A stretch of DNA of 64,000 bases from Platerodrilus igneus (taxonomy: Eukaryota; Arthropoda; Insecta; Coleoptera; Lycidae). This document shows positions 2,001 to 51,317 of this stretch, piece by piece. Both the position numbers and the translations under genes were made by a program. The DNA lies in assembly GCA_036346225.1 (NCBI GenBank), contig JARFIW010000453.1, forward strand, positions 8,556,001-8,620,000, given 5' to 3'. The notes under the pieces are model-generated. The model had not been told where the DNA came from and did no database searches. It saw only the letters and a program-made list of their open reading frames with translations. Within the stretch, counting starts at the first letter, position 1. Each line of letters begins with the position of its first letter.

Positions 2001-2116
2001 TTAAATAAACAAAAAACAACTGGCATTTGTCAGATATTATTAGTTAAAGTGTTTATTTGCTCTGGGTTGCAAATTTTGTGTAGAAGACTTTTAAATTTAT
2101 TTGATTATAATAGAGA

Positions 2117-3169
2117 ATGTATACAAACGACGAAAAAAATGGCATGCTCTTTTGTTACTATGCCTGTATCAGAAATTGTGATGCTGCTGGTGATATGTAT
2201 TATGAAAGATATTTGGAAAGAAGGCAGCCAGATAAACGATTGTTTTCTAAATTAGAAAACAATTTAAAAAGGTTTGGTGCTTTTACAAAACCCAGTACTG
2301 ATAAAAGAAAATTCAAAACTGATGATGAAGAACGTGTGTTAGCCTACATAAATTTTAAGCCAACGGCGTCCACCCGAGAAACTGCAATTGAGTGCGCTAG
2401 TTCTACAGAAAAAGCTCGCCTAATTTTAAAACAAAACCGCTACAAACCATACAAAACCCATGTTAGCAATACACTGTATCATGGGGATTGTGAGAGAAGA
2501 CAACAGTTTTGTAGGTGGTTTCTTAATGAAACAAATAATGATCCTGGTTTTAGTCACACTATTATATTTACCGACGAAGCAAAATTTACTAACAAAGGCA
2601 TGTTTAACAGAAAAAATACAGTCTACTGGAGTCAGGAAAATCCCCATTTAACAGAAGAAAGGCGGGATCAACATCAATTTTCGATAAATGTGTGGTGTGC
2701 CATTTTGGTAATAAAATACTTGGGCCTTTCTTCTATAATTATAATTTAAATGGTGTACGCTATTTAAATTTTCTACAAAACGAATTGCAAGAAATGCTCG
2801 ATAATTTGCCACTTCATTTACTGCAAAACTTATATTATTTTCAGCATGACGGTGCACCTGCTCACAATGCTCAAGCCGTTTCTGAATATCTTGATAATAG
2901 TTTTCCAAATTGGATTGGCAATGCAGGTCCTGTTCCATGGCCGGCAAGGTAACCAGAACTATCGCCACTGGATTTTTTCTTTGGGGTACTGTAAAGGATG
3001 TAGTGTATGCTAAAAATCCAATAACATTGAGCAACTCAAAGATAGTATTACAGCAGCTATTACAAGTATAAAACCACAAACGTTAAATAAGGTGCACCAA
3101 AACCTAATTAAAAGGTGCGAAATGTGTTTGCAAGCTAATGGAGGTCATTTTGAGCATATGTTAATGTAG
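2117..3169 (+). pseudogene. Mariner-type transposase (DD41D-like), inactivated
   Basis: ATG at 2117 starts MYTNDEKNGMLFCYYAC, an N-terminal DNA-binding helix-turn-helix of the DUF4817 kind (YERYLERRQPDKR, GAFTKPS). The first catalytic Asp is in FTDEAKF (about 2570), the second in HDGAPAH (about 2850) and the third in SPLDFF (about 2975). I count 40 residues between the second and third Asp, close to the DD41D group of insect mariner relatives. The C-terminus NGGHFEHMLM ends at 3167-3169. Breaks: a frameshift near 2700-2730 (WCAILV versus VCHFGN), an in-frame TAA where the motif should read RSPELSP (about 2950), and a one-base loss in the FFLWG stretch. It would have cut and pasted the element by binding the long terminal repeats; it is dead here. 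Confidence 0.88.
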
Positions 3170-10526: not shown

Positions 10527-13500
10527 CATTAGTTTATCCATCTTGGGATTGGTTGGATGCGTACCTCCATTGATTTCTATTCTGGGCTAGCCTACACATC
10601 TCCTGAAACCTCTACAGCCTACATCTTTTACTATCTGTGTGCAGTAGTCTAATCTAGGTCTGCCTCTTCTTCTCTTTTTCCTATCTCTGCTTCTAAAATA
10701 TTTCGCACTATTCCCTCATGCCGTAGTATGTGGCCTATCATCCTATCTCTCCTATTTTTACCGTTTTCCACATATTTCTTTCTTCCCCTACCATTTTTAG
10801 TACCTCTTCGTTCTTAACTTTGTCTGTCCATGATATCTTCATCATACGCCTGTAACACCACATTTCAAAGGCTTCTACCTTTTCTTGTCCGCTTCTCCTA
10901 CTGTCCAGGCTTCACAGCCGTACAGTGCTGTGCTCCACACATATGTTTTAAGCAATCTTTTCCTTGTTTCTATGTTTGTGGTCTTTGAGCACAATAGTTG
11001 CTTTTCTTGTTAAATGTAGCACGACCTTGTGCTAATCTTTGTTTTATATCTTTTGTGCTTTTCCCATCTTGCGTTATTTGGCTTCCTAGGTAGCAGAAAT
11101 CCTTAACCTCTTGTAAGTTCGTGTTAAATACTTGTATTCTTGTTTTTGATTTATTTTCCCCACCTTTGCAAACTAGAACTTTAGTTTTAGTTTTGTTAAT
11201 TTTCATACCGTATGTCTCTGTTAGAACCGTTTCCATTTCATTAAGAGCCGCTTCTAACTCTTCCTTGCTAGATGCTAATACCGCTATGTCATCTGCAAAT
11301 CTAAGCATATCAATTTTTTGTCCCTGCATAGTAATTCCAAATGTCTTTCTGCATTTGACAGTATTCATTGCCTCTTCTATGTACAAGTTAAAATCAATGG
11401 GGATAGGGCACATCCCTGTCTCACCCCTTTCCTAATGTTTACTTCTCTACGTTCCTGCTCTAATTCTATTACTGCAGTTTGCTCTTTGTATAAGCTATGT
11501 ACTATTCGTCTATCCCTATAACTCATTCCAATCCTTTTGAGTATTTCAAACATTTTTTTCCAATTTACATTGTCGAATGCTTTTTCCAGATCTACAAACC
11601 CTATATACATGCTTTCCCCTTTGTCTATTGTTTTCTCCATTATCACTCTCAGAGCTAAAATAGCCTCCCGTGTTCCCCTGTTTCGCCTAAACCCAAATTG
11701 GTCTTCTCCTAGTATTTCTTCAGCTCGTTTTCCATTCGTCTTTGCACAATTCTAGTTAATATTTTTGACACGTGTGCTGTCAAACTTATTGTTCGAAAAT
11801 TTTCACATCTATCCGCGCCTTTCTTTTTTGGTATAGTTACTATGATGCTACGTTTGAAATCTTTGGGTATCTCGCCTGTCTCATACATATAGCTTACAAG
11901 TTGGAAGAGACGTTCTGTTACTGCTTGTCCAGCGGCTTTTAGAGTTTCTGCTTGCACCTTATCTGTACCCGGCGCCTTACCATTTTTCAGACTCTTTAAT
12001 GCAAATTCAAACTCGTCTCGAAGTATAGGATATCCCAAGTCATCATTTTCAATGTCTGATTCCTGTTCTAATGCAGTTAGTTCCTCTCCTGCATATAAAT
12101 TCCCTAGATATTCTTGCCATCTACTCACTTTCTCTACGTTTTCTATAATGACGTTTCCTTGTGCGTCCCTTATATTTTTGCTATACGGTTTTATATCCCT
12201 AAAATTCATTCTAATTAATTTGTATGCTTCGTCTGTCTTTCCTATTTCCATCTTAGTTTGTACTTCTTTGCACTTTTCATCAATCCATTGTTCTTTAGCT
12301 TTCCTGCATTTTCGAATAATTTCCCATTTTATGGCTTTGTATCTCTGTTTTCCTGTTTCGTCTGATTTATTTTTGCATTTTCGTCTTTCTTCTATTAAAT
12401 TCACGATATCCTTTGTTATCCATGGTTTCTTATTTTCTTTTTGTGTATACCCCAAAATATCTCTGGCCGCCATGTCTAGGCTGGATTTAATGTTATTCCA
12501 TTCTGTTTCTACTTCCTTAGTTTCAGATATTTTCGCGATATCATTCAGCAATTCATTTGACTTTTTTTCGAATCTTACTTGAATATCTTTGTCTTTTAGT
12601 TTCTCTAAGTCCAAGTGCCTTTTTCCGTTCCTCTTTTTCAGATTTTTAAATTTAAGTGCGGCCTTTATAATTACGATGTTGTGGTCAGTATCTATATCTG
12701 CATCTGGGTAACTTCTACAGTCTTTTACTTGATTCCTAAACCGTTGTCTAACAAGAATGTAATCTATTTGATATCGTCCTATATCTCCTGGCATCTTCCA
12801 CGTATATCGTCTTCTAGCATGATGTTGAAATAATGTGTTTGTGATGATTAAATTGTTCTTGTCGCAAAATTCTACCAGCCTATTTCCCCTGTTGTTTCTC
12901 GTGCCTAAACCAAATAAACCTACTACCGCTTCTTCCCTACCCTCACCTACCACAGCATTAAAATCCCCCGTAATTATTAAATTTTCATGTCCTTTTACGT
13001 ATCTTAATATGTCTTCGATATCTTTGTAGATGGCTTCTACCTCTTCGTCACTGTAGCTAGAGGTGGGCATGTATACTTGTATTATTACTGTGTTTACCGG
13101 TTTAGATTCTAATCTAACCATGAGTACTCTTTCATTCTTTTGTAAGTAATTTTCCACACAGTGTCCTATCTTTTCCGCATAACTATCCCCACACCCAAAT
13201 TTCCATCCTCTGCTCCTGTATGAATTACCCTGAAGTCTCCACTCCAAAATCCCCGCCTCTGGCCACCGAACTTCGCTGATCCCTACTATGTCTAGTGATA
13301 ACCTATTCATTTCGATTTTTAGGTTCTCTAGCTTACCTACTTGCTTCATACTTCTAACATTCCACGCTCCGACTCGCAGAATGTTCCCGACTCTTATTTT
13401 TAACTTTCCGATCGCATCCTCCGAAGTAGTCCCCTCCCGGAGATCCGAATGTGGGACTATTTTAACTCCGGAATCTTTTACCCCAGAGAATGCCATCATT

Positions 13501-13545
13501 TTATTATAATTTAGGTACGCTGTGTACTTGGGAGTGCAGTTTCAT
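10527..13545 (-). mobile_element. RTE-like non-LTR retrotransposon, nearly full length (~3.0 kb)
   Basis: Single reading frame (start 13499) for an apurinic-type endonuclease plus reverse transcriptase and a C-terminal region, with a short 5' leader of about 45 bp. The 3' end corresponds to the end of other copies that carry TGA-repeat tails. The compact ~3 kb size, endonuclease-RT order without a separate gag frame, and simple-repeat tail fit the RTE clade (BovB/CFDP2-type proteins). Further fragments of the same family lie at 6638, 9050, 19192, 20166-22385 and 54060. Confidence 0.85.
10560..13499 (-). pseudogene. Endonuclease-reverse transcriptase of the RTE-like LINE
   Basis: ATG at 13499 is followed by 596 sense codons. 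The endonuclease domain (about residues 40-285) keeps its key motifs: WNVRS (Asn), ISEVRWP (Glu), GDFNAVVG (Asp), QIDYILV (Asp) and DTDHNI (Asp-His). RT starts near LKNGKAPGTDKV and FRTISLTAHVSKILTRI. A one-base loss at about 11730 stops the frame; the other frame resumes (11377-11646) with GFVDLEKAFDNVNW (motif A) and VRQGCALSP. A second indel near 11400 leads to 10970-11413 with RFADDIAVLAS (FADD catalytic motif) and CYLGSQI. Further shifts precede the C-terminal MIGHILRHEGIV region (about 10740). It would nick target DNA and prime cDNA synthesis there. The frameshifts make it inactive, but the endonuclease part is intact. Confidence 0.88.
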
Positions 13546-28880: not shown

Positions 28881-29572
28881 TGAACAATTCGAAAAATTGA
28901 TACCGCATTAATTCTCACTATTGTCAAAGCAAAAGGAAACAGTATTTTTCAACGTAATTAATTTATAGGAAGCAAGAACAAACTACAACTGCTCATCTGT
29001 TTATATCAACTCGTTTCTAATACAACCTCTTATCGACTATTATCTCCTTCGCTAATAACATAAGGAACATCCAAAACGTGAATGCAGCCATCATATCTAA
29101 TAACTAATTACAGTTGTTTGTCATTTTCGATAAGTTGGAAAGTAATTTACGAATAAACCAATTTACAATTCATTCCTTGCAATTTATTTATTAATTGAAA
29201 ATCAATCTTTAATTAAACTATTTTTAAAGTAATACACACGAGTTAAATTGCATACAAATCTGAAAACTATTCGAAAGTATTTACTTTATACAAACAGCGA
29301 TCCAAAAACGATGTATTTTAAGAATTGACTATAGCGTAAAATGTTAAACTATAAAAATGCCCGTTACAAGCATATACAAACTACGCCTAACCGCAGCTGA
29401 TCCGAATAACGGTTTAGCAAGTATCAATGTTTCTAGACATTTATGGTGCCTTGCTTACAAGCTTACTACCTCCTTCTACTAGCCTACTATAAAATAAAAT
29501 AAAACCCCACGTTGTGTATACCTAATCTGTGGTGTAAAACATCATTATGTAGTGCATAAAACAAAGAAAACT
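28881..29572. other. No feature recognised
   Basis: AT-rich, without supported coding or repeat structure. Confidence 0.4.
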
Positions 29573-29626
29573 ATTATCTACCCCTAAATAAAATTAAATA
29601 AAAACCCTTAACCACAAAAAATATTC

Positions 29627-29678
29627 AAATTACTAAATACGTATTTCGACCACTATGTGGCCATCATCAGTAGAAAAC
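29627..29678 (-). ncRNA. Hammerhead ribozyme motif, left arm
   Basis: On the minus strand: CTGATGA core (complement at 29664-29670), stem II GGCCAC / GTGGTC closed by a 3-nt ATA loop, then GAAA, then the self-complementary TACGTA and TTT. The core matches the right-arm copy base for base. Predicted cleavage lies between plus-strand positions 29636 and 29635. Stem III is four base pairs without a loop, as in hammerheads thought to work as dimers. One extra U sits between the CTGATGA box and stem II, which may reduce activity. Confidence 0.72.
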
Positions 29679-29749
29679 CTGTAATTGAAAAAAAAAAAAG
29701 CTGTTGTTCTGGAACACACAATTCACTTGTTTGTTGTTGAGAACACCAG

Positions 29750-29865
29750 CCTGCGGGTGAGGAGAATATCCTCGATAGTGTTTAAAGCAACAATATAGTA
29801 AATTATAGGTTGGGAAGGTTCACTTCAGCCTAAGTGGTGAGGAGAATATCCTCTGAAGTGTTCCG
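29750..29865 (+). repeat. Two copies of a GGTGAGGAGAATATCCTC motif in the foldback centre
   Basis: GGTGAGGAGAATATCCTC starts at about 29756 and again at about 29836, 80 bp apart, each followed by a GTGTT. GAGGA-GAATA-TCCTC is a small hairpin on its own. These look like a partial tandem duplication and could be protein- or RNA-folding sites. Confidence 0.75.
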
Positions 29866-29899
29866 GAACAACAGCTTTTTTTTTTTTTTCAATTACAGG

Positions 29900-29949
29900 T
29901 TTTCTACTGATGATGGCCACATAGTGGTCGAAATACGTATTTAGTAATT
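29900..29949 (+). ncRNA. Hammerhead ribozyme motif, right arm
   Basis: CTGATGA at 29907-29913, stem II GGCCAC (29915-29920) / GTGGTC (29924-29929), GAAA at 29930-29933, and palindromic TACGTA at 29934-29939 forming a loop-less stem III. Predicted cleavage is after T29941. Stem I pairs CTA (29904-29906) with TAG (29942-29944), then, after one mismatch, two more pairs. U29914 is an extra unpaired base. A transcript reading outward would self-cleave about 75 bases before the element's right end. Confidence 0.72.
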
Positions 29950-30031
29950 TAAATATTTTTTGTGGTCAAGGGTTTTTATTTAATTTTATTTAAATCGTGC
30001 CACAGTGTTCCTATAGATTATCTACCCCTAA

Positions 30032-33000
30032 TTGGCCAAATAGTATAATCAATGATAGATATTCAATCAATTTAATTTTTACGTGCTATTATGCCTCTAC
30101 AATAATAAATTTTTTTATACGAGAATTCTGTGTTCACAATACGCTTTAAGTAAGTGTGCGCTATAGTTAATAGTTTTTAATAAGAATAAGCTCTGTACTT
30201 TATTATGATTACCATCAAACGCAATTATTAAATGCAACCAGACCGCATGTGACGTTTATAAGATGGATAACATAAATTGAATCAATTTTAGTTTTTTGTT
30301 CACCTTAAATCTCCGCCGACATACAGTGCAGGACTCGTTTCAGGTAAAATCCAACTTATAGTAACACAACAGCACCCAACACAGACAATTTTCCCTATGG
30401 GACAAGTATATCGTATGCGCGTGTTCTTACTTGTGTTCGGACACCTGTTTCACTAGCGGTTCTGAGGTTTGGACATCGTTTTGTTGACTACCTGGTTTTT
30501 AACCCTATCCTGCGCCGCAATGGTGGTTCGTGTATCGATCGAATTCGAAGCTCTGCTGGCTGATGTCTAGTATCGAATGATAACTGATGAATGAATGAAT
30601 TTTGTCTTTTACTACCAGTCGGTTTTTAGAAGCTTTCATACCCCAATCATTGCATGCTATTTTTCTTTTCACGGATTGTGCGTCTAAACTAGCCTAATTT
30701 TGAGATAAACGTTGTTCTGTCTGTGTGAACATTTACGTTGTTCCCACGATTATACCTTCAATACCAAAAACCGTGTCATTCATCTGCTCTTAACGCAATA
30801 ATTTTATGGTTTTAGGAGGCTATGGTTTTTGCGGTATATTACCTATAATTGTGCTCGTATGAATTTGTACAAATAACTTTAATGTGACGGTTATTTCTCA
30901 GGTTTCCATCAGTGATCTTTGAATTTAATACAAAGGTTTGTAGAATGCAGATATTTATTACCCTTTGTATTTAATATAGTGGATGCTTTCCTATTTTAAT
31001 TTCTTATCCTAATTGAATAATATACTGAAATAGTAACGTAATTAAATCTAGACTATCAAACTTTCTAAATTTTACTGACGGCTTTCGTGCTGAAAGCTCA
31101 TTTAACTATCTAGAATTAATAAATTCTTTTCTACATCTTAATATTTCCTAAAGTAACGCGCAGCATTACCTGCTCTAATGAGGAACTAATACAGTACTAA
31201 AAATTCATGATTAATTTCCTATTGCATTTGTATATCACGCGTGTTTCTTAAACATTTTCTTTCCCCGACTGCTGTATCTCCCTGTGTCTAGCACTCTCTG
31301 GTTGCGTGTTTGGATTTGTAGAAAAGTAGAGCGCGTCTTATTGTTCATTCCATTGACTTTTTATAGTAATTTGTAACCTCATTCAATGTTGGCAAATAAA
31401 AAGCATGGAAATTGCAATCTTCCGTTTACTTTCAGACGAAGATTCCAAATTTTACACCTGAAAGCAAACAAAGTAGTATGTTCTTGCTTAATCAAGTCAA
31501 AGACACATCGACTGATCCCAAACCTCGGTAGTCAGCTCGTACAATTTTTTTTATGATGTCTTGAAATTCTAAACTCCAATGACCCATTTAAAATTACAAA
31601 GTTGAAATGACTACTGTAATGTAATGGAACACTCTTTTGTCTCTTCTGACTCAATTAGCTTCTTAGCTCCATTGGAAGACGATCGCAGTGAATCAGGGTT
31701 CAGTATAAATTTATAAGGAAGAGATTCTAAATTTATATAAGCGATGATGTAATTATGTAAATAAGAATGTGGAATATGAGATATATCAGAAAAGGTACCT
31801 ATAATATTTATGTAATAATTGCTTATGAAACCAATCATGCGTGTAATACTATTGATAGCCTAGTTACTAGTAATAATGTAATTTGTAAGGATCTGTACTA
31901 GAAAAACTAGTACAAAGTTTAAAATCCATGAAGAAAATACCGATAAAAATCCCACATATATAGAGAAGAATTGTTAAAACAATGAACGAAAAGTTATTAA
32001 AAGGATTAACAAATAGTAATATTTAACAAAGAGACCAGGAAAAGTGCAAAAGCATTTCGTAAAGAACCCTAGCAGAAAACGATAAAACAGTTCCAGGAAA
32101 ATAAAAGATGTTAATAAAAGTGTACGTACAAGCAAATTTAAGTCGAATAAAATAATTAAAAGCAAAACTAAATACAAACAGTGCCAAGAAAAAATTGAAT
32201 CAAAAAATTTGAATGGTAAGAGTAAGATGGCCAACACGCTATATACCATTTGAAGATATTGCTATTACGAATGACAAAAGTAATAAAGAAAAGACTATTG
32301 TGTCTATACTGGTTATACTAGGCCTACCTACACGTGGTACATGCAAAAAAACGTCTATGTATCACATTTAGATTAAGTATAAATTATAAGGTAGTTCCCG
32401 CGAATATTTTTTAATGAACTTGTCAATTTCCGTCATTCCGGACAGTTGCTTTTGTGCAAAAGAATGCGCAGGTGCGGAGTGTGTGAAAGGACGCCATTAA
32501 GCTACGAGACCTGAAGCCAAGAACATCTACCGGTGTTGTGTGTTTGTCTTTTCTCTTTTTAGGATGTAGGTTCCTTTATCTTCCTCCTTTTGTGGCACCT
32601 CTACCTGGTAATTTTTTATTCCTCTACTTAGTTAGTCCTCCACTTAGTTAGTGTGGTATATCTAATCGCGCGGACTATTTCTTGGAGCAGCTAATCATCA
32701 AACAGTTCTTGGAGAAGCAGAAACAGTTGAAGTTAGTCTCCCATCACATTGTACAATGTTTTGATTGCATATTGGAATATAAAACCGCAAAACACATGTT
32801 GTACACAAGCGAAACAAACCTCACAGCTAAGGGTTTTTTGAATCTTCGAAACACTGAGGAAAATCTTACTGAAGCTGATATTACCATCCAACAGAACAAC
32901 TGGTAAATCTACCATATAATTAAATTAGTTCGAACTAGTGGGGCAGAAGTCGGTCTTGCAAACCATAAAGGTCACTATGTACGAACCTTTGTTAACTGGA

Positions 33001-37334: not shown

Positions 37335-38619
37335 CGAGGGTAAGGTGAAAAGTTCTCGGCCTACAATGAAAGACTGCAATTTTTTATAAAAAAAAAAGAT
37401 TTTATTTTTCGACATAATCCCCATTAACTTTAACACATGGTCCAGCGTTTCTCCAACGTCAGTATTCCTTCCCGGAAGTGAGAGTCTGGAAGGCTGTGAA
37501 AATATTCGTCTACGGCCCACTCAACTTCTTCATTGGACATGAAGTGCTTCCCAGAAATAGTTTTCTTAAAGTTTGGGAACAGATAGAAGTCTGAGGGCGC
37601 CAAATCAGGGGGGATGGCCGAGCAAGTCGTACCCCAAATCCGTCAATTTTCCCATCGCCAACGCACCCTTGTGTGCAGGTGCGTTGTCTTGGTGAAAGAT
37701 GATTTTCTTCTTCTTCAAGTCAGGCCTCTTCTCGCGAATTTTGGCATTCAGCTGGTCAAGAAGGGTGGATGAATATTGGCCTGTAATTGTTCTGCCTTTT
37801 TCAAGGTAATCTATTAACAGGATTTCTTTCGCATCCCAAAACACGTTGGTCATCACCTTTCCGGAAGATGCGATCGACTTCGGTTTCTTTGGTGCTGAAC
37901 AACCGGCTTTCACCCACTGCACCGACTGCTGTTTCGTTTCTGGCGTGTAATGGTGGACCCATGTCTTATCCATAGTGACAAATCGCCGCACAAAATCGCT
38001 CGTATCCTTATTGAACCGGGCCAAACATTGCTGCGAAACTCGTTTTCGCATTTGCTTTTGATCGGCATTCAGCAAATGCGGCACCCATCTTGCGCAGAAC
38101 TTTTACATCCCTAACTCTTTGTGTAAGATGTTTCGCACCTTTTCGTCTGATATCCCTACAGCCTCAGCTATCTCCTTCACTTTCACTCGCCTATCGTCCA
38201 ACACGATATCATGCGCTTTTTCGATCGTTTCCGGTGTGGTTGCGGTTTTTGGTCGTCCTTCACGTGGGTTATTTTCGAGAGACGTGCGATTACGTTTAAA
38301 TTCAGCTGCTCACTTTTTAACGGTTGACAGGAGGGGCAGGGTCTCCGTAAGCTTTTGTCAACTTCGGATGAATTTCCTGAGGGGTTAATCCGTCCAAAAC
38401 GAAGAATTTTATGACCGCACGATATTCAAGTTTATGCATATTAAGGAAACACGCATAAAACGTCTGCTTGAAAAAATTCGTGTAAACAAACTACTTGAGA
38501 TAGCAAGTTGAAACTTGTCGTACGAACTAATAACATGTGCACGCAGGCGGAAAGCACAAATTTTTGCCGATCGGAACGCCATTTCTGTGTCAGGCCAAAA
38601 ACTTTTCACCTTATCCTCG
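37335..38619 (-). mobile_element. Full-length mariner inserted in gypsy pol
   Basis: Flanking TA at 37333-37334 and 38620-38621. Ends CGAGGGTAAGGTGAAAAGTT and, inverted at the right, AACTTTTCACCTTATCCTCG (reverse: CGAGGATAAGGTGAAAAGTT). Length is about 1.29 kb. Joining the flanks restores the gypsy codons for Q-Y-L-K-K-K-Y-K without any loss except one TA, so the insertion and its age relative to the gypsy element are clear. Confidence 0.93.
37402..38439 (-). pseudogene. Mariner transposase (DD34D type), broken
   Basis: ATG at 38439 and stop at 37402 would give 346 codons, the normal mariner length. The N-terminus MHKLEYRAVIKFFVL leads into a helix-turn-helix broken by stops (38150-38350). 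The frame from 38084 gives PHLLNADQKQMRKRVS, FVTMDKTWVHHYTPET (first Asp kept, the usual DETW changed to DKTW) and IIFHQDNAPAHKG (second Asp). About seven bases are lost in HPPYSPDLAPSD at 37615, then SDFYLF (third Asp) continues in another frame, and YVEK is the C-terminus. It cut and pasted the element and is now inactive. Confidence 0.9.
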
Positions 38620-45763: not shown

Positions 45764-46921
45764 TCAGGGATCACGAGTCGAATCTTGACTTGAAGAATGA
45801 ATTTGATTTGCCAAAAGACACAATTTAGTTATTGGTCTTATGTAGTCGCCAGTTGTTGTATGAATTTTGACAGCACGAACTTTTCCGTCGCAGCCAGGAA
45901 TTGTCTCTAAGACACGGGCTAGAACCCATTGAAGAGGAGGAGTGTCATCTTCTTTGACTAACACTAGGTCATTTTCCTTTAAGTTTTCTTTTTCTTCAAA
46001 CCATTTTGGTTTATTTTGCAAACGATTGAGATACTCTACAGACCAACGTTTCCAAAAGATTTGCTGAATCTGTGATATCTTTTGATAGAGTGAGAGTCTA
46101 TTTTCAGAAATATTTGAGACATCTTTTCTGGATAAGAAGTTAATGCAGAACCAATTAAAAATGTCCAGGGGTTAAACAGCTCAAATCAGAAGCATCATTA
46201 GATAAGGGACTTAGAGGTCTAGAGTTCATTATAGCCTCTATTTGACATAATATTGTTAGAAATTCTTCATAGGTGAAACTTTGGTTACCTATGATTCTTT
46301 TCATGTGGTATTTCGCACCTTTTATGGCGGATTCCCATATACCACCCCAATGAGGGGATTTTGGAGGAATAAATTTCCATGAGGTTTCATTTTGAGAAAG
46401 AAAATTAGAAATAATCAGAGAATTATTTTTATTTTTGAAAAAATCATAAAGATCTTTGAGTTGGTTTTTTGCACCTGAGAAATTTGTAGCGTGATCGCTA
46501 TAGATTGTTGACGGATTTCCACGTCGCGAAATAAATCTTTTTAATGTAGATAAAAGGATTCAGTAGATAGACTTGTAACTACTTCGATATGTACAGCTTT
46601 TGTAGCCATACAAACGAATATTGCTATATAGGCTTTTATTTTGGGAGCTTTACGCAGCCCAGAAGATTTTAAGAGAAAGGGGCCACCGAAGTCGACACCT
46701 GATTTGTGAAAGGGCCTCGCAACATTGACTCTGTCTTGAGGGAGGTCTGCCATTATTTGTTTAGAAAACTGATTGCTAAATCTGAAACAAGTAATACAAT
46801 TTCGAATTAGCCCTTTGGTTTCTCGTAAACCATTAAGTGGCCAAAATCTCAGCCGAACGTTTGATAGGGTTGTTTGAGCACCTGCGTGTCCTAAACGCTT
46901 ATGCTCATACATAAGAATCAA
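45764..46921 (-). pseudogene. BEL/Pao integrase and C-terminal domain
   Basis: HHCC zinc finger: HKRLGHAG with CITC downstream. Core: first Asp in SGVDFGGPF and VCMATKAVHIEVV. After a frameshift near 46541, second Asp in YSDHATNFSGAKN and Glu in HWGGIWESAIKGAKYHMKR; after further shifts, FLTILCQIEAIMNSRPLSPL. The C-terminal part (45764-46021) reads LVLVKEDDTPPLQW, ARVLETIPGCDGKVRAV and YIRPITKLCLL, the DUF5641-type end typical of BEL/Pao. It inserts the cDNA copy. Confidence 0.9.
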
Positions 46922-47276
46922 TTTGGTTATTTGATTTTGGAAGGCATTAGTAATGGATGTTTTGTTGATAAGAAATGCTAGCGTTTCCTAGACGACCGCC
47001 AACTCGTAGAAGTCCAGTGGAATCTAAAATGGAGATAAAGAATGCAACTGTTTATTTGACAGTTGCTTATTTTTGAGAGTTCCGACAGTTCTTTTGAGAA
47101 ATATTTATTTTGTGTTTGTTTAATAATGAACTGTAATGATACCTCTAGTTCTTGAGGTGCTTAGGGCACCGGAGATTCGATTGCCTTTGGCAATATCAAT
47201 AAAACGAAATATGTACGCATAGGTGCGTAACAAACGAGAGAAATTAGAAAACGCAAGAAAGTTTCTTCAATGTAAG

Positions 47277-47880
47277 TTAGAGTTGTGAATCATCGTGAGT
47301 CACAAGATGCGATTTTCTTTCTTCAGGCAATTCTAAGGTAATTAGAGATTGATCTACTGTTAGATCTAGACAAGGATTTAACAAAAACTTAAGACCTTGC
47401 CACCACGAATCATTACTAAGAATCTCGCGGACAGACAAGCCTCGTGATAAAGGATCGGCTGCATTTTCGGACGATTTTACGTGTCGCCACTTAAAATCAG
47501 AATCTTGTATTTGAGAAACACGATGTGAAACAAAAATAGACCATCTGCTGGCGTGACTTTTACACCAGGCTAAGGCTATTAATGAGTCAGTCCACAAATT
47601 TACCGAGTCAAAATTTATTTTATTTTTGAAAATTTTAATAGTAATCTTACGAGTTTTGAAAGAAGGAGCATAGCACAAAGTTCAAGTCTAGGAAGTGTAA
47701 TTGTTTTAACAGGAGCTACCCTTGACTTGGAAGAAATTAACTTAGAGGAAATGGTGCCGTCTGCATATATAGCACGTACATACACACAGCCACCGTATGC
47801 GGCTAAGCTTGCATCAGCAAAGCCATGAAGTTCAGTTTTTGAAATGGTTTTATTTAAGAAATAGAACCTTGGAATGTTTT
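47277..47880 (-). pseudogene. BEL/Pao RNase H region
   Basis: Frames give ELHGFADASLAAYGG (about 47835-47790), PVKTITLPRLEL, VNLWTDSLIALAWCKSH and KSSENAADPLSRGLS, with the conserved acidic residues of the retroviral-type RNase H fold. One or two single-base indels separate it from RT and split the domain. It removes RNA from RNA-DNA hybrids during cDNA synthesis. Confidence 0.85.
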
Positions 47881-47886
47881 GTTCCT

Positions 47887-48666
47887 TCAGTAATGAAAGA
47901 TTTTGTAGAAATTGTTAAATTCGTCGAGCATTTTTGAATCTGAGATAATTGTGTCCCAGTCCAGTTTAAGAATCCACAACTTTTGTATTAATATTTTACC
48001 CTTTACTATAACAGGATTTATTAACCCAAGAGGGTCATAGCACTGGGCTATTGCTGACAGAATTTTTCTTTTGGTAAGTGGGAAGATTTGCTTATTTTCT
48101 GTTGTAGAAATGTAAAGAGAATCAGTATTAGGGTTCCATTTTAGCCCTAAAACTTTATTTGGAGCATCTTGCAAATTAATGTCGTAGTCCAAGGAATCGG
48201 ATTTTTTAGCGATATTTTTTAGAAAAGTTTTGGAATTAGAACAATATTTGTGAAGTTCAAACCCATGCTTGTTCAGAACGGCTTTTAACTCAGTGTGAAG
48301 TTTGAAAAGAATGTCTAAATTTTGCGCGCCACACAAACCGTCATCCATATAAAATTGAGAAGAAATTGCTTCCGAAGCAAGTGGAAATTCATTTTTACTC
48401 AAAGATGCTATTTCTTTAAGCACTCGAGATGCGAGAAAGGGGGCACTGTTAGTGCCGTAGGTAACAGTGTCTAACTGAATACATTTCAGATCATCCTCAG
48501 GGTTTTCACGCCAGAGGATATTTTGTAAGAACGTTTGTTCGGGATTGATTAAAATTTGTCTAAACATTTTCTGTATGTCAGTGGTGAAGACAAAGGAGAA
48601 CATTCTAAATCTACAAAGAATGTCGAATAAATCCGGATGAACTTGGTAACCCTTAAGAGATGTCAT
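47887..48666 (-). pseudogene. BEL/Pao reverse transcriptase
   Basis: The long frame contains FVFTTDIQKMFRQILI (motif A), TVTYGTNSAPFLASRVL (motif B), SQFYMDDGLCGA (catalytic YMDD), NKHGFELHKYCSN and LGLKWNPN, then ILSAIAQCYDPLGLINPV. All RT motifs are intact. Joining to the upstream frame needs a one-base shift at SLNDIS / LKGYQVHPDL (about 48660). Pao-type features (motifs DPLGL, YMDD) are clear. Confidence 0.95.
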
Positions 48667-50197
48667 TTAAGGAGTAACCAGAAGAAGTTTTACAACTTGC
48701 GTCATACACAACGCGTAGTTTAGTAGATGTGCTACATTCACGAATAACACACAAATGAGGAATGAAATATTTATTTTCTAATTTGCAGTTTTGCAATATT
48801 AAGGGAACATATTTAGCATGTCCAAGAGAGACATACTCTTGCAGGAAATTTTTATATTCATGAAATAAAGTACTATTTGTTTGGAACCTTTTTTCTAAAC
48901 TCAAAAAGCGTTTTTTAGCAATGGTAAAGGAATCGCCGAGCTTGCTAGGCTCTGACGAAGATTTTAGTGGAATATCTACCTGAAATCTGCCGTTTTCTAA
49001 TATTTTTGTTGTAGAAGTAAAAATGTGTTCGGATAATTGGTGTTCTTCAGAAGGAATAGATATTTCGGAAATGTCTTCCATTTCCCAGAATTTTTTTAGA
49101 AAAGAACCAACTTTTGAAGTCGCAAGAAAGGAAAATTTTGACTTATCTGAATTTTCGTTTTCAGACAGAGACATATTAGAATGAGTGTAGTTTTTTGGGA
49201 CTGTACCTGCTACAATCCATCCCAAGTGGGACTCTTGTAAAACAGGAAGATTTTTACCTAGTTTAATTATATTTTCAAGAATTATATCATAGTAGCAATC
49301 TAGACCTATCAAAATGTCAATTTCTGCCGGCAAGTAATATTCGTCGTCAGCTAAGAAAATATTTTTAGGTATTTCTATTTTGTCATTCATTATCTGAGTT
49401 TGAGGAAGCTTGCACGTTATATTAGGTAAAACAGCACAAGTTATTTTGAAGGATTTACTTAGATCTTTGTTAGAGAATATTTTAATATTCACCAATTTAT
49501 CGGCGATAGTAGAGCTTTCGTTGATGCCAGAAATATTCATAGTTGTATTGTGAGTTTTACAGGGTAGTTGATCAGCTAATTTTTGTGTGATAAATGAGTT
49601 TTGACTACCAGTATCAAACAACAGCTTGGCCGAAATAATTTCTCCGTATTTAGAGCAGAGAGTTACTTTGGCCGTAGCTAGGAGGACATGGCAATATTCT
49701 ACCGAATGGGCTGAATGGGTAATCAAATTAGACATATGCTTAGCATCGTCTTTAGAAATTGGTGCACAAGCATTTTCTTGTTGTGCGAAGGAATCATCAT
49801 TTTGCGAACTCGGAACTTTCTTGTTTGTTTGTGAATTTTTATTTTGGAAATTAGATTTAGGAGAGAAGTTACTTTTATAACTAGAACTTGTAATCGGAAG
49901 AGATTGATCGCCCAATCCTTTGTCTATGTGTAACAGAGAATTATGCGATTTAGAACAGAAAGAACATTTTTGGGTAGAAGAACAATTTGCAATATTGTGC
50001 TTGCCTAGGCAGTTAAAGCACAACTTATAAGATTTAATGTAGTCAACTTTTTCTTGATATCTTAGATTTTTGAAGGAAATACAGGTGTAGATTCTATGAC
50101 CTGCTTTTTTGCAAAAGGAACACTTAAGAACTTGTTGGAATTTTTCGTGATTGGCAACTGGAGCAGAGTGATAAACAGAAATTGATTTTCTTTGCAA
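48653..50197 (-). pseudogene. BEL/Pao zinc knuckles, protease and start of RT
   Basis: Open from upstream (the first codon of the stretch is TTG, so it is not an independent start). Knuckles: CSFCKKAGHRIYTC, CFNCLGKHNIANC and a CSFCSKSH-type third. The aspartic protease has KLLFDTGSQNSFITQKLA (Asp-Thr-Gly) and EIDILIGLDCYYDII. A linker with HLGWIVAG and KRFLSLEKRF leads to the RT N-terminus (KYFIPHLCVIRE, TKLRVVYDASC). The protease would process the polyprotein. Confidence 0.93.
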
Positions 50198-50223
50198 TTT
50201 AGGACTAGCAACATCAATATTTT

Positions 50224-51098
50224 CTAAGACAGAACTCCTTTTTCTAAGAATTTTATAAAATTTTCCAAATTGGGAATTATAGAATGATCTCTTTCCATTT
50301 CATAAGCACGTTTTGTATTGAAATCCAACTTTTTGAAAAGAAATATTAAAATAATATTCCATAAATCTTCGTAAGAAAAATTTAAATTTTGAGAGATTGA
50401 ATATTTTTCTGAATGGTAGCCGAATTCACGCAGTGAACTTAACTTACATTTTGTCATGATTGGAGATTCTAACATTGCTGATAAATGAGAATTGACTATA
50501 ACAAATTTGTTTTCAAATCTACTTTTCAAAATATTTAAAGCGATATGGAAATTTTCATTTGTAATTGGCAAGGAGTCAATTAAATGCAAAGGTTCATTTT
50601 TAAATAACTTTAAGATATACTAAACGCTGAATGTTTGATAATTGAGAATTTTTATTATAAGAGCATCGAAAAGTTGATAAAAGATTCAAATTCTTTTATA
50701 TCTCCCGAAAAAGTTTGAATTTTGATTTCCGGCAACTTGACTGCCGTTGATTGAGGATTACTTAAAGAGGATTGAAAACTATCATCTTGATTTTCAATGG
50801 CTTCCGTTTGCTTTCTTCTTAAATTGGCAATACATTGAGTAATATTGCTTGCAAGAGAGAAATATTTGTCTTCTATGACGGACCTGTCTTCTACATCAAG
50901 AACTTCTTCCGAACAGAGAATTTCTATTTCATCTTGAACTTTTTCGTATGAATTAAACAAAGAATGCACCCGTTGCAATCTGATTTCAAATTCGAGTGGT
51001 GTGTTACAAGTGTCCGCACTTTGAGCGAACCACGATTCTATTCGCGTAAAGGAACCTTTGACCGAAGCTCTAGACTTTTTTAAATTTTCTAAGCTCAT
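50224..51098 (-). pseudogene. BEL/Pao Gag
   Basis: ATG at 51098 (MSLENLKKSRASVKG) starts a coiled-coil-prone N-terminal part, followed by PEIKIQTFSGDIKEFESFI, the DUF1759 capsid-like domain. The frame ends at 50655. Three single-base shifts within about 100 bases (50690-50590) precede LIDSLPITNENFHIALNIL, REFGYHSEKYS and LENFIKFLEK. Gag and Pol would normally form one polyprotein here, as usual in BEL elements. A 5' leader of about 245 bp separates the ATG from the LTR. Confidence 0.92.
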
Positions 51099-51317
51099 AT
51101 TGAATTTTTTAGAAATTAATGTTTATAGAAAATATCATGCACTTTTACACAACAGTTTAACAGATAGAAAAGTAAAATGGAATAAGCTCACCCAATTAAT
51201 CGCTGCTTGTTGTTGAGTTTCCAGGAATCTTCCAGAAATCTAGGCGAACTTGACAATGTGTGTTCAGGAACTAGTGTCTTCTTTCCAATAGAAAGGCTGG
51301 CTTCCAGGAATATCCAG

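Follow-up and report, generated by a model that had tools for sequence, protein, structure and literature searches.

Inverted terminal repeats are already known in Penelope-like elements (PLEs). In the available part of PMC3846280, Pen2a_Av and other PLEs of Adineta vaga are described as encoding a reverse transcriptase (RT) with GIY-YIG and as carrying direct pLTRs together with an adjacent inverted pLTR. An optional short tail, 31 bp long, was found at one inverted pLTR, and a duplication of 8-10 bp surrounded the whole. Because of palindromic junctions, Arkhipova et al. suggested that such repeats arise by self-priming on antisense RNA (PMC3846280, same part), and inverted PLE repeats are also mentioned in the accessible text of PMC8969392.

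A second system is Poseidon of Anolis carolinensis (PAc). According to the accessible sections of PMC11167929, the PAc protein cleaves and extends both strands in vitro at AT-rich sites, and its RT starts at two adjacent internal sites bounding the tail, with start-site use equal between the strands. Unprocessed RNA was the main substrate, cleavage mutants left insertion unchanged, and the later steps of PLE insertion were still to be validated according to this 2024 study (PMC11167929). The two-strand extension is not linked to inverted copies in these sections. Hammerhead ribozymes of PLEs are described as minimal type I motifs in which stem III is almost absent (Cervera and de la Pena 2014; Lunse, Weinberg and Breaker 2017, via the available portions of PMC6155905 and PMC7761336), and plant retrozymes, which carry a hammerhead in each LTR, are thought to spread via circular RNA (PMC6155905 and PMC7761336, same portions).

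The window analyzed here is a stretch of 64,000 nucleotides from Platerodrilus igneus. It contains an inserted unit of 429 bp (29588-30016, plus strand), which is bracketed by two exact copies of the 15-nt direct repeat ATTATCTACCCCTAA (29573-29587 and 30017-30031). An earlier note, made from the letters of the window, had described this target duplication and the two inverted arms, and both were recovered: 29585-29717 and 29858-29992 (133/135 nt) are 96% identical, with an ungapped stretch of 115 nt at 98%. The left arm (29588-29717, minus strand) would be a cDNA of the element 3' end without tail, from reference position 2750 down to 2617, and the right arm (29717-30016, plus strand) a cDNA of about reference 2476 to 2774 with the tail. 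The two cDNAs overlap by 1 nt at their junction (29717), the position of which varies among copies. The 24-nt tail (29993-30016, plus strand) lies between two presumed RT start sites and is present at one outer end only, and a run of 14 T is found at 29876-29889 (plus strand). Since ATTAT, the first bases of ATTATCTACCCCTAA, also continues the element interior 3' of the tail (L074-L077), the real target duplication may be about 12 bp and not 15. The right arm also contains two copies (29756-29782 and 29836-29862, 89%) of a 27-nt sequence that includes a GAGGA-GAATA-TCCTC hairpin, in the presumed 5' leader of the element; both copies are present across 13 aligned copies of the family and are altered in some.

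Several other mobile elements seem to be present in the window, judged by eye from their reading frames. These are a putative non-LTR retrotransposon with endonuclease and RT (10970-13541, minus strand), a run of frames resembling a BEL/Pao-type LTR retrotransposon (45764-51122, minus strand), and two putative fragments of mariner-type transposases (2114-2952, plus strand; 37605-38102, minus strand).

To place the unit in a family, its own genome (2.71 Gb) was searched with it, which gave 2126 first-look candidates, and 40 of them were scored. Twenty-three of the 40 matched the right part of the unit alone, at 98-99%. Nine of these were compared, and they shared upstream sequence of up to about 2.8 kb that was cut at varying points. 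A shared 3' end with varied upstream cuts identifies a 3'-anchored, 5'-truncated retroelement. The long relatives encode an RT (Pfam RVT_1, E 2.7e-11, in the ORF of L010). The C-terminal piece of L010 had no direct Pfam match; it shares 46% identity across 90 aa with the GIY-YIG end of the protein P0002, which itself matches PF01541 (E 2e-05). A direct pLTR copy is located 2.8 kb upstream in L010, and tandem or partial-tandem copies giving pLTRs are found in L010, in L016 and in multimer arms. The RT, the GIY-YIG end and the direct pLTR copies together define the family as an endonuclease-bearing PLE, with the same parts, including the adjacent inverted pLTR, as the Adineta elements (PMC3846280, available part). 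A protein search (59 scored of 47544 candidates) recovered further copies, among them several with uninterrupted ORFs of 740-822 codons, and the best-scoring named homologs were insect proteins, many from beetles and most with RVT_1. Genome-wide, the 34-nt core of the arms has 645 exact copies (332 + 313; reversed control 0) and the 24-nt tail has 3214 copies with at most one mismatch.

The window unit is thus a shortened copy of a common element, 5'-truncated and 3'-anchored. The earlier note had asked for further genome copies and for a Penelope-like polymerase with the same ends, and the searches yielded both. Its view of the unit as a stand-alone, short non-coding foldback of unusual design found no support: the unit is an ordinary PLE insertion, truncated and bearing an inverted 3' end, of a kind already known (PMC3846280, available part). 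A separate non-coding foldback or retrozyme-like element is not supported, the unit being one of many insertions of the PLE, and 5' truncation, the common 3' end, the optional tail and the target duplication are all present across copies. An inverted-repeat DNA transposon (foldback or MITE) was likewise rejected, as the ends are unequal by the tail and the arm lengths are unequal.

Copies were mapped on one reference copy (L010:1300-4073, 2774 nt), and 38 head-to-head pairs were tabulated: 36 from 57 stretches (58 loci, two of them adjoining), the window, and the nested L072. The 21 stretches outside the table (L009, L011, L013, L016, L034, L037, L039, L043, L044, L050, L052, L053, L054, L056, L057, L058, L059, L062, L063, L064 and L065) are mostly single-armed or end before the outer end. 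The copies were chosen by similarity to the query, with 40 scored per search, and much of the sample came via a tail-containing query. In the two-armed, outward-pointing insertions, each arm measures between about 50 nt and several kb; some arms read through tandem RNA from the tail into the ORF start, and arms of any length occur, up to 2.7 kb and beyond. Compared with the Adineta PLEs (PMC3846280, available part), copies are far more numerous here, arms reach kilobases, and tandem RNA is read through. Among the first 100 of the 645 exact cores, neighbors within 7 kb were back-to-back in 23 cases and facing in 0, and the two same-direction arrangements accounted for 6 and 2; the back-to-back count is a lower bound, since exact cores alone were counted. 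The two-armed form is not obligatory, because L009 and L016 are single-armed, with duplications of 12 and 11 bp, respectively.

Some loci showed other arrangements. L013, outside the table, has two arms, the left one stopping at reference 1745. In L059 (248-296), two tail-less family ends face each other 12 bp apart, the reverse of the usual order, and they are perhaps two neighboring insertions. A short foldback is nested within a longer one of the same family in L044 and L072 (C639:1084490-1084940), and both of its arms are without reference 2567-2657, which would fit a template RNA that already carried this deletion. The right arm of L061 contains a partial leader repeat (2471-2582, then 2479-2774), as if the RT had run off the RNA 5' end and then jumped to a second RNA.

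The tail was distributed in a regular manner. Exactly one tailed outer end was observed in 34/34 of the pairs with ordinary outer ends (38 tabulated), one end lying at reference 2772-2774 and the other at 2742-2756. The tail was on the right in 23 of these pairs and on the left in 11. An odd outer end was found in 4/38 pairs: L029 (2688 and a tail), L048 (a tail and 2719), L055 (2680 and a tail) and L060 (2327, no tail). A tail-free query yielded four more ordinary pairs, each with one tail (L047, L049, L061 and L066). It also gave the far end of L017, which has no tail (L051), and three of the four odd-ended pairs. Places where both outer ends might carry a tail were also sought, and eight were found among the first 100 of the 3214 tail copies. 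The edges of six of these were read, and every one of the six has one internal tail that runs into the ORF; the other two are C2:9035525/9035975 and C20:2244724/2249151. For the back-to-back pair C89:3300724/3302568, there was no exact tail among the first 100 of the 3214 tail copies. We found no published account of this one-tail rule in mainly open literature, including the available parts of PMC10085705 and PMC12910113. Inverted PLE repeats and PLE hammerheads are already described, and the informative point is how regular the copies are.

Next to the tail, the duplications and the two arms were compared across the 38 pairs. A target duplication (score at least 10) was found around 31/38 pairs and in 0/92 mismatched flanks. 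The modal length was 12 bp (16/38), in contrast to 8-10 bp in Adineta PLEs (PMC3846280, available part). The duplication was absent in L021 and L060 and was just 6 bp in L041. A candidate target motif, a C that precedes the duplication on one side (15/26), was dropped, as it was partly biased by the choice of the longest match. The arms overlapped by 1-11 nt at the junction in 20/38 pairs, abutted in 1 and were separated by 1-45 unmatched bases in 17, and a palindromic junction stem of at least 8 bp was present in 9/38, off center in one of the nine (L042). Junctions differ among the 13 aligned copies, none of which share an exact junction.

Arm lengths differed by more than 30 nt in 35/38 pairs. 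The tail-less arm was longer by more than 30 nt in 10/34 pairs and so holds sequence absent from the other arm; this count excludes L046, whose arm is inflated by a foreign stretch of 3.9 kb (11 with it). The tail arm was not the longer one in every pair: it was longer in 23/34, or in 24/34 with the foreign stretch of L046 excluded by hand. Two places held many of the 76 inner ends: reference 2465-2495 (23 ends) and the U-run at 2610-2645 (17 ends), the latter corresponding to the 14-T run of the window. The former cluster would represent the RNA 5' end, and TTCACTT, found there, presumably resembles an initiator.

To compare the sources of the two arms, eight subfamily sites were used, each variant of which occurs in at least 4 insertions. 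The arms of one insertion were discordant in 7/107 comparisons, while the mean discordance of shuffled partners was 36% (26-46% in 95% of shuffles). Low discordance within insertions relative to shuffled partners suggests that the arms of an insertion come mostly from one source lineage, either one RNA or sister RNAs. Disagreements were found in L021 (2/2 sites) and L015 (2/4 sites). Two different source RNAs per insertion had first been suggested by variants in two loci, and this idea was dropped when the commoner variants showed agreement.

These observations probably reflect a PLE insertion in which both target strands were nicked, each primed RT on RNA of the same source, and the cDNAs were joined back to back. 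The endonuclease of the element would nick the two strands about 12 bp apart, and each freed 3' end would then prime reverse transcription on element RNA, one from the tail start site and the second from another site that lies about 24 nt more internally. Both cDNAs would stop independently, which in the window would be near the RNA 5' end for one and just past the U-run for the other, and would be joined, often with slight microhomology. The palindromic tips may be small snap-backs at the cDNA ends prior to joining. Two-strand priming, one event per published PLE start site, fits the copies better than self-priming because the ends are one-tailed and the arm lengths are unequal, yet the source variants are shared. 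Our data thus favor priming from both target ends, in contrast to the proposal for the Adineta PLEs (PMC3846280, available part). The PAc data were obtained in vitro, whereas the copies here are genomic products in a different host (PMC11167929, accessible sections). In the mainly open literature searched, we found no proposal of two-strand priming as the origin of inverted PLE copies. We also lean, with less confidence, towards a broader reading, in which PLE integration is a paired, asymmetric two-strand reaction on RNA of the same lineage, one strand always using the tail site and the other a site 24 nt inside, which would make inverted copies a regular outcome of integration and the tail a marker of one of the strands. 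The one-tail rule needs something extra, because equal start-site use on both strands is reported in the accessible sections of PMC11167929; a dimeric protein that seats one RNA asymmetrically could put the tail site on exactly one strand.

The 9/38 palindromic junctions, the disagreement between arms in L021 and L015 and the four odd-ended pairs stand against two-strand priming. The palindromic stems, 7 of which lie near the presumed RNA 5' end, would instead be expected from self-priming (snap-back) of one cDNA, perhaps on antisense RNA, the published hypothesis for Adineta Penelope elements (PMC3846280, available part). The arms of L047, whose inner ends fall on a single reference base and carry a stem of 25 bp, favor this hypothesis as well, and the source variants common to both arms also fit a single-molecule model. 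However, self-priming predicts one common inner end, which is difficult to reconcile with the length difference in 35/38 pairs and with the longer tail-less arm in 10/34, and copying of a cDNA poorly explains two different RT start sites at the target ends in 34/34 pairs. We consider self-priming unlikely.

Nested insertions are known here (L044 and L072), and two solo copies could have inserted back to back, or a solo copy could later have been inverted by recombination. This is very improbable, since a single duplication encloses the pair in 31/38 cases against 0/92 controls, exactly one tail is present in 34/34, the source variants of the arms match, and 23 back-to-back neighbors contrast with 0 facing ones among the first 100 of the 645 exact cores. 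The window unit also resembles retrozymes in being small, non-coding and hammerhead-bearing, and the numerous copies of similar size with a hammerhead-type core in each arm could suggest a foldback or retrozyme-like family that is non-autonomous and is amplified whole via self-cleaved circular RNA. A retrozyme was rejected, as the arms are inverted and not direct and the junctions differ among the 13 aligned copies; unlike retrozymes, the window unit was formed at insertion. Arm lengths of up to 2.7 kb and more, the predicted folding of the full transcript arm on arm and the passage of 74/76 arms beyond the predicted cleavage site also make such a family hardly credible. Two-strand priming on RNA of one source remains our preferred explanation.

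The hammerhead-type cores are located at 29904-29944 in the right arm (plus strand, predicted cleavage 3' of 29941) and at 29633-29673 in the left arm (minus strand, predicted cleavage 3' of 29636). Each core reads CTGATGA, an extra T, GGCCAC-ATA-GTGGTC, GAAA, TAC/GTA and T-T^TAG, and the type I hammerhead rules (CUGANGA, stem II, GAAA, A15.1-U16.1, H17, stem I) are satisfied in order. In the hammerhead numbering, the extra U lies between A9 and stem II. A motif scan requiring the core, stem II, stem III and a stem I of at least 3 bp gave these two sites and no third in the 64 kb, in agreement with the earlier note, and a mean of 0.01 sites in each of 100 simulated 64-kb sequences. From the order of the motifs alone, the cores are predicted to be hammerhead-type. 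They have the same minimal type I order, with no loop, in the terminal repeats of a PLE as the hammerheads described before, from which the extra U before stem II may set them apart (PMC6155905 and PMC7761336, available portions). The PAc hammerhead near the ORF start resembles the arrangement here (PMC11167929, accessible sections).

The covariance-model check, by contrast, gave no support, an outcome that the earlier note had listed as a ground for refuting its ribozyme claim. Rfam returned zero families at threshold over the whole window, and for 29400-30200 at E ≤10 the only family to match, weakly, was an unrelated Caenorhabditis sRNA; no hammerhead matched. Given that PLE hammerheads have been reported to be minimal and to lack helix III, we did not regard the missing Rfam match as disproof. 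Stem II appeared in every predicted monomer fold, and the full hammerhead fold was absent from all of them. The two common variants within the motif keep the hammerhead rules: a G.U to A-U change in stem II at reference 2674, the minor form in 15 insertions, and a U to C change at H17 (reference 2699) in 8 insertions. These variants were compared within one family. ORF starts were fetched in search of other PLE families; 4/5 carry the same pLTR and core, and the fifth has neither the pLTR nor the core of the window family. The full foldback transcript is predicted to fold arm on arm (-235.6 kcal/mol), and this pairing should conceal both cores.

Since 74/76 arms continue beyond the predicted cleavage site, trimming of the template by the predicted ribozyme looks dispensable, and the template was apparently usually uncut there. 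The two arms that stop within 10 nt of the site are those of L038 (at 2698) and L041 (at 2690). The uncut template parallels the PAc cleavage-mutant result (PMC11167929, accessible sections). Cleavage by the predicted ribozyme would not be required for making the back-to-back product, and the motif may be present in the foldback simply because it is located in the terminal repeat and is carried along with it. The earlier note had proposed recent copying of, or selection on, the ribozyme to explain why the two cores are identical. Selection on the ribozyme pair is not needed, given the source variants shared between arms: the identity is most simply explained if both arms copy one source RNA lineage in one insertion. 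That the predicted ribozyme seems mostly unused for template trimming bears on why PLEs retain it. With the one-tail rule, the duplication of about 12 bp and the unequal arms of the same source, genome copies become a readout of the PLE insertion reaction and offer a direct test of two-strand priming against self-priming.
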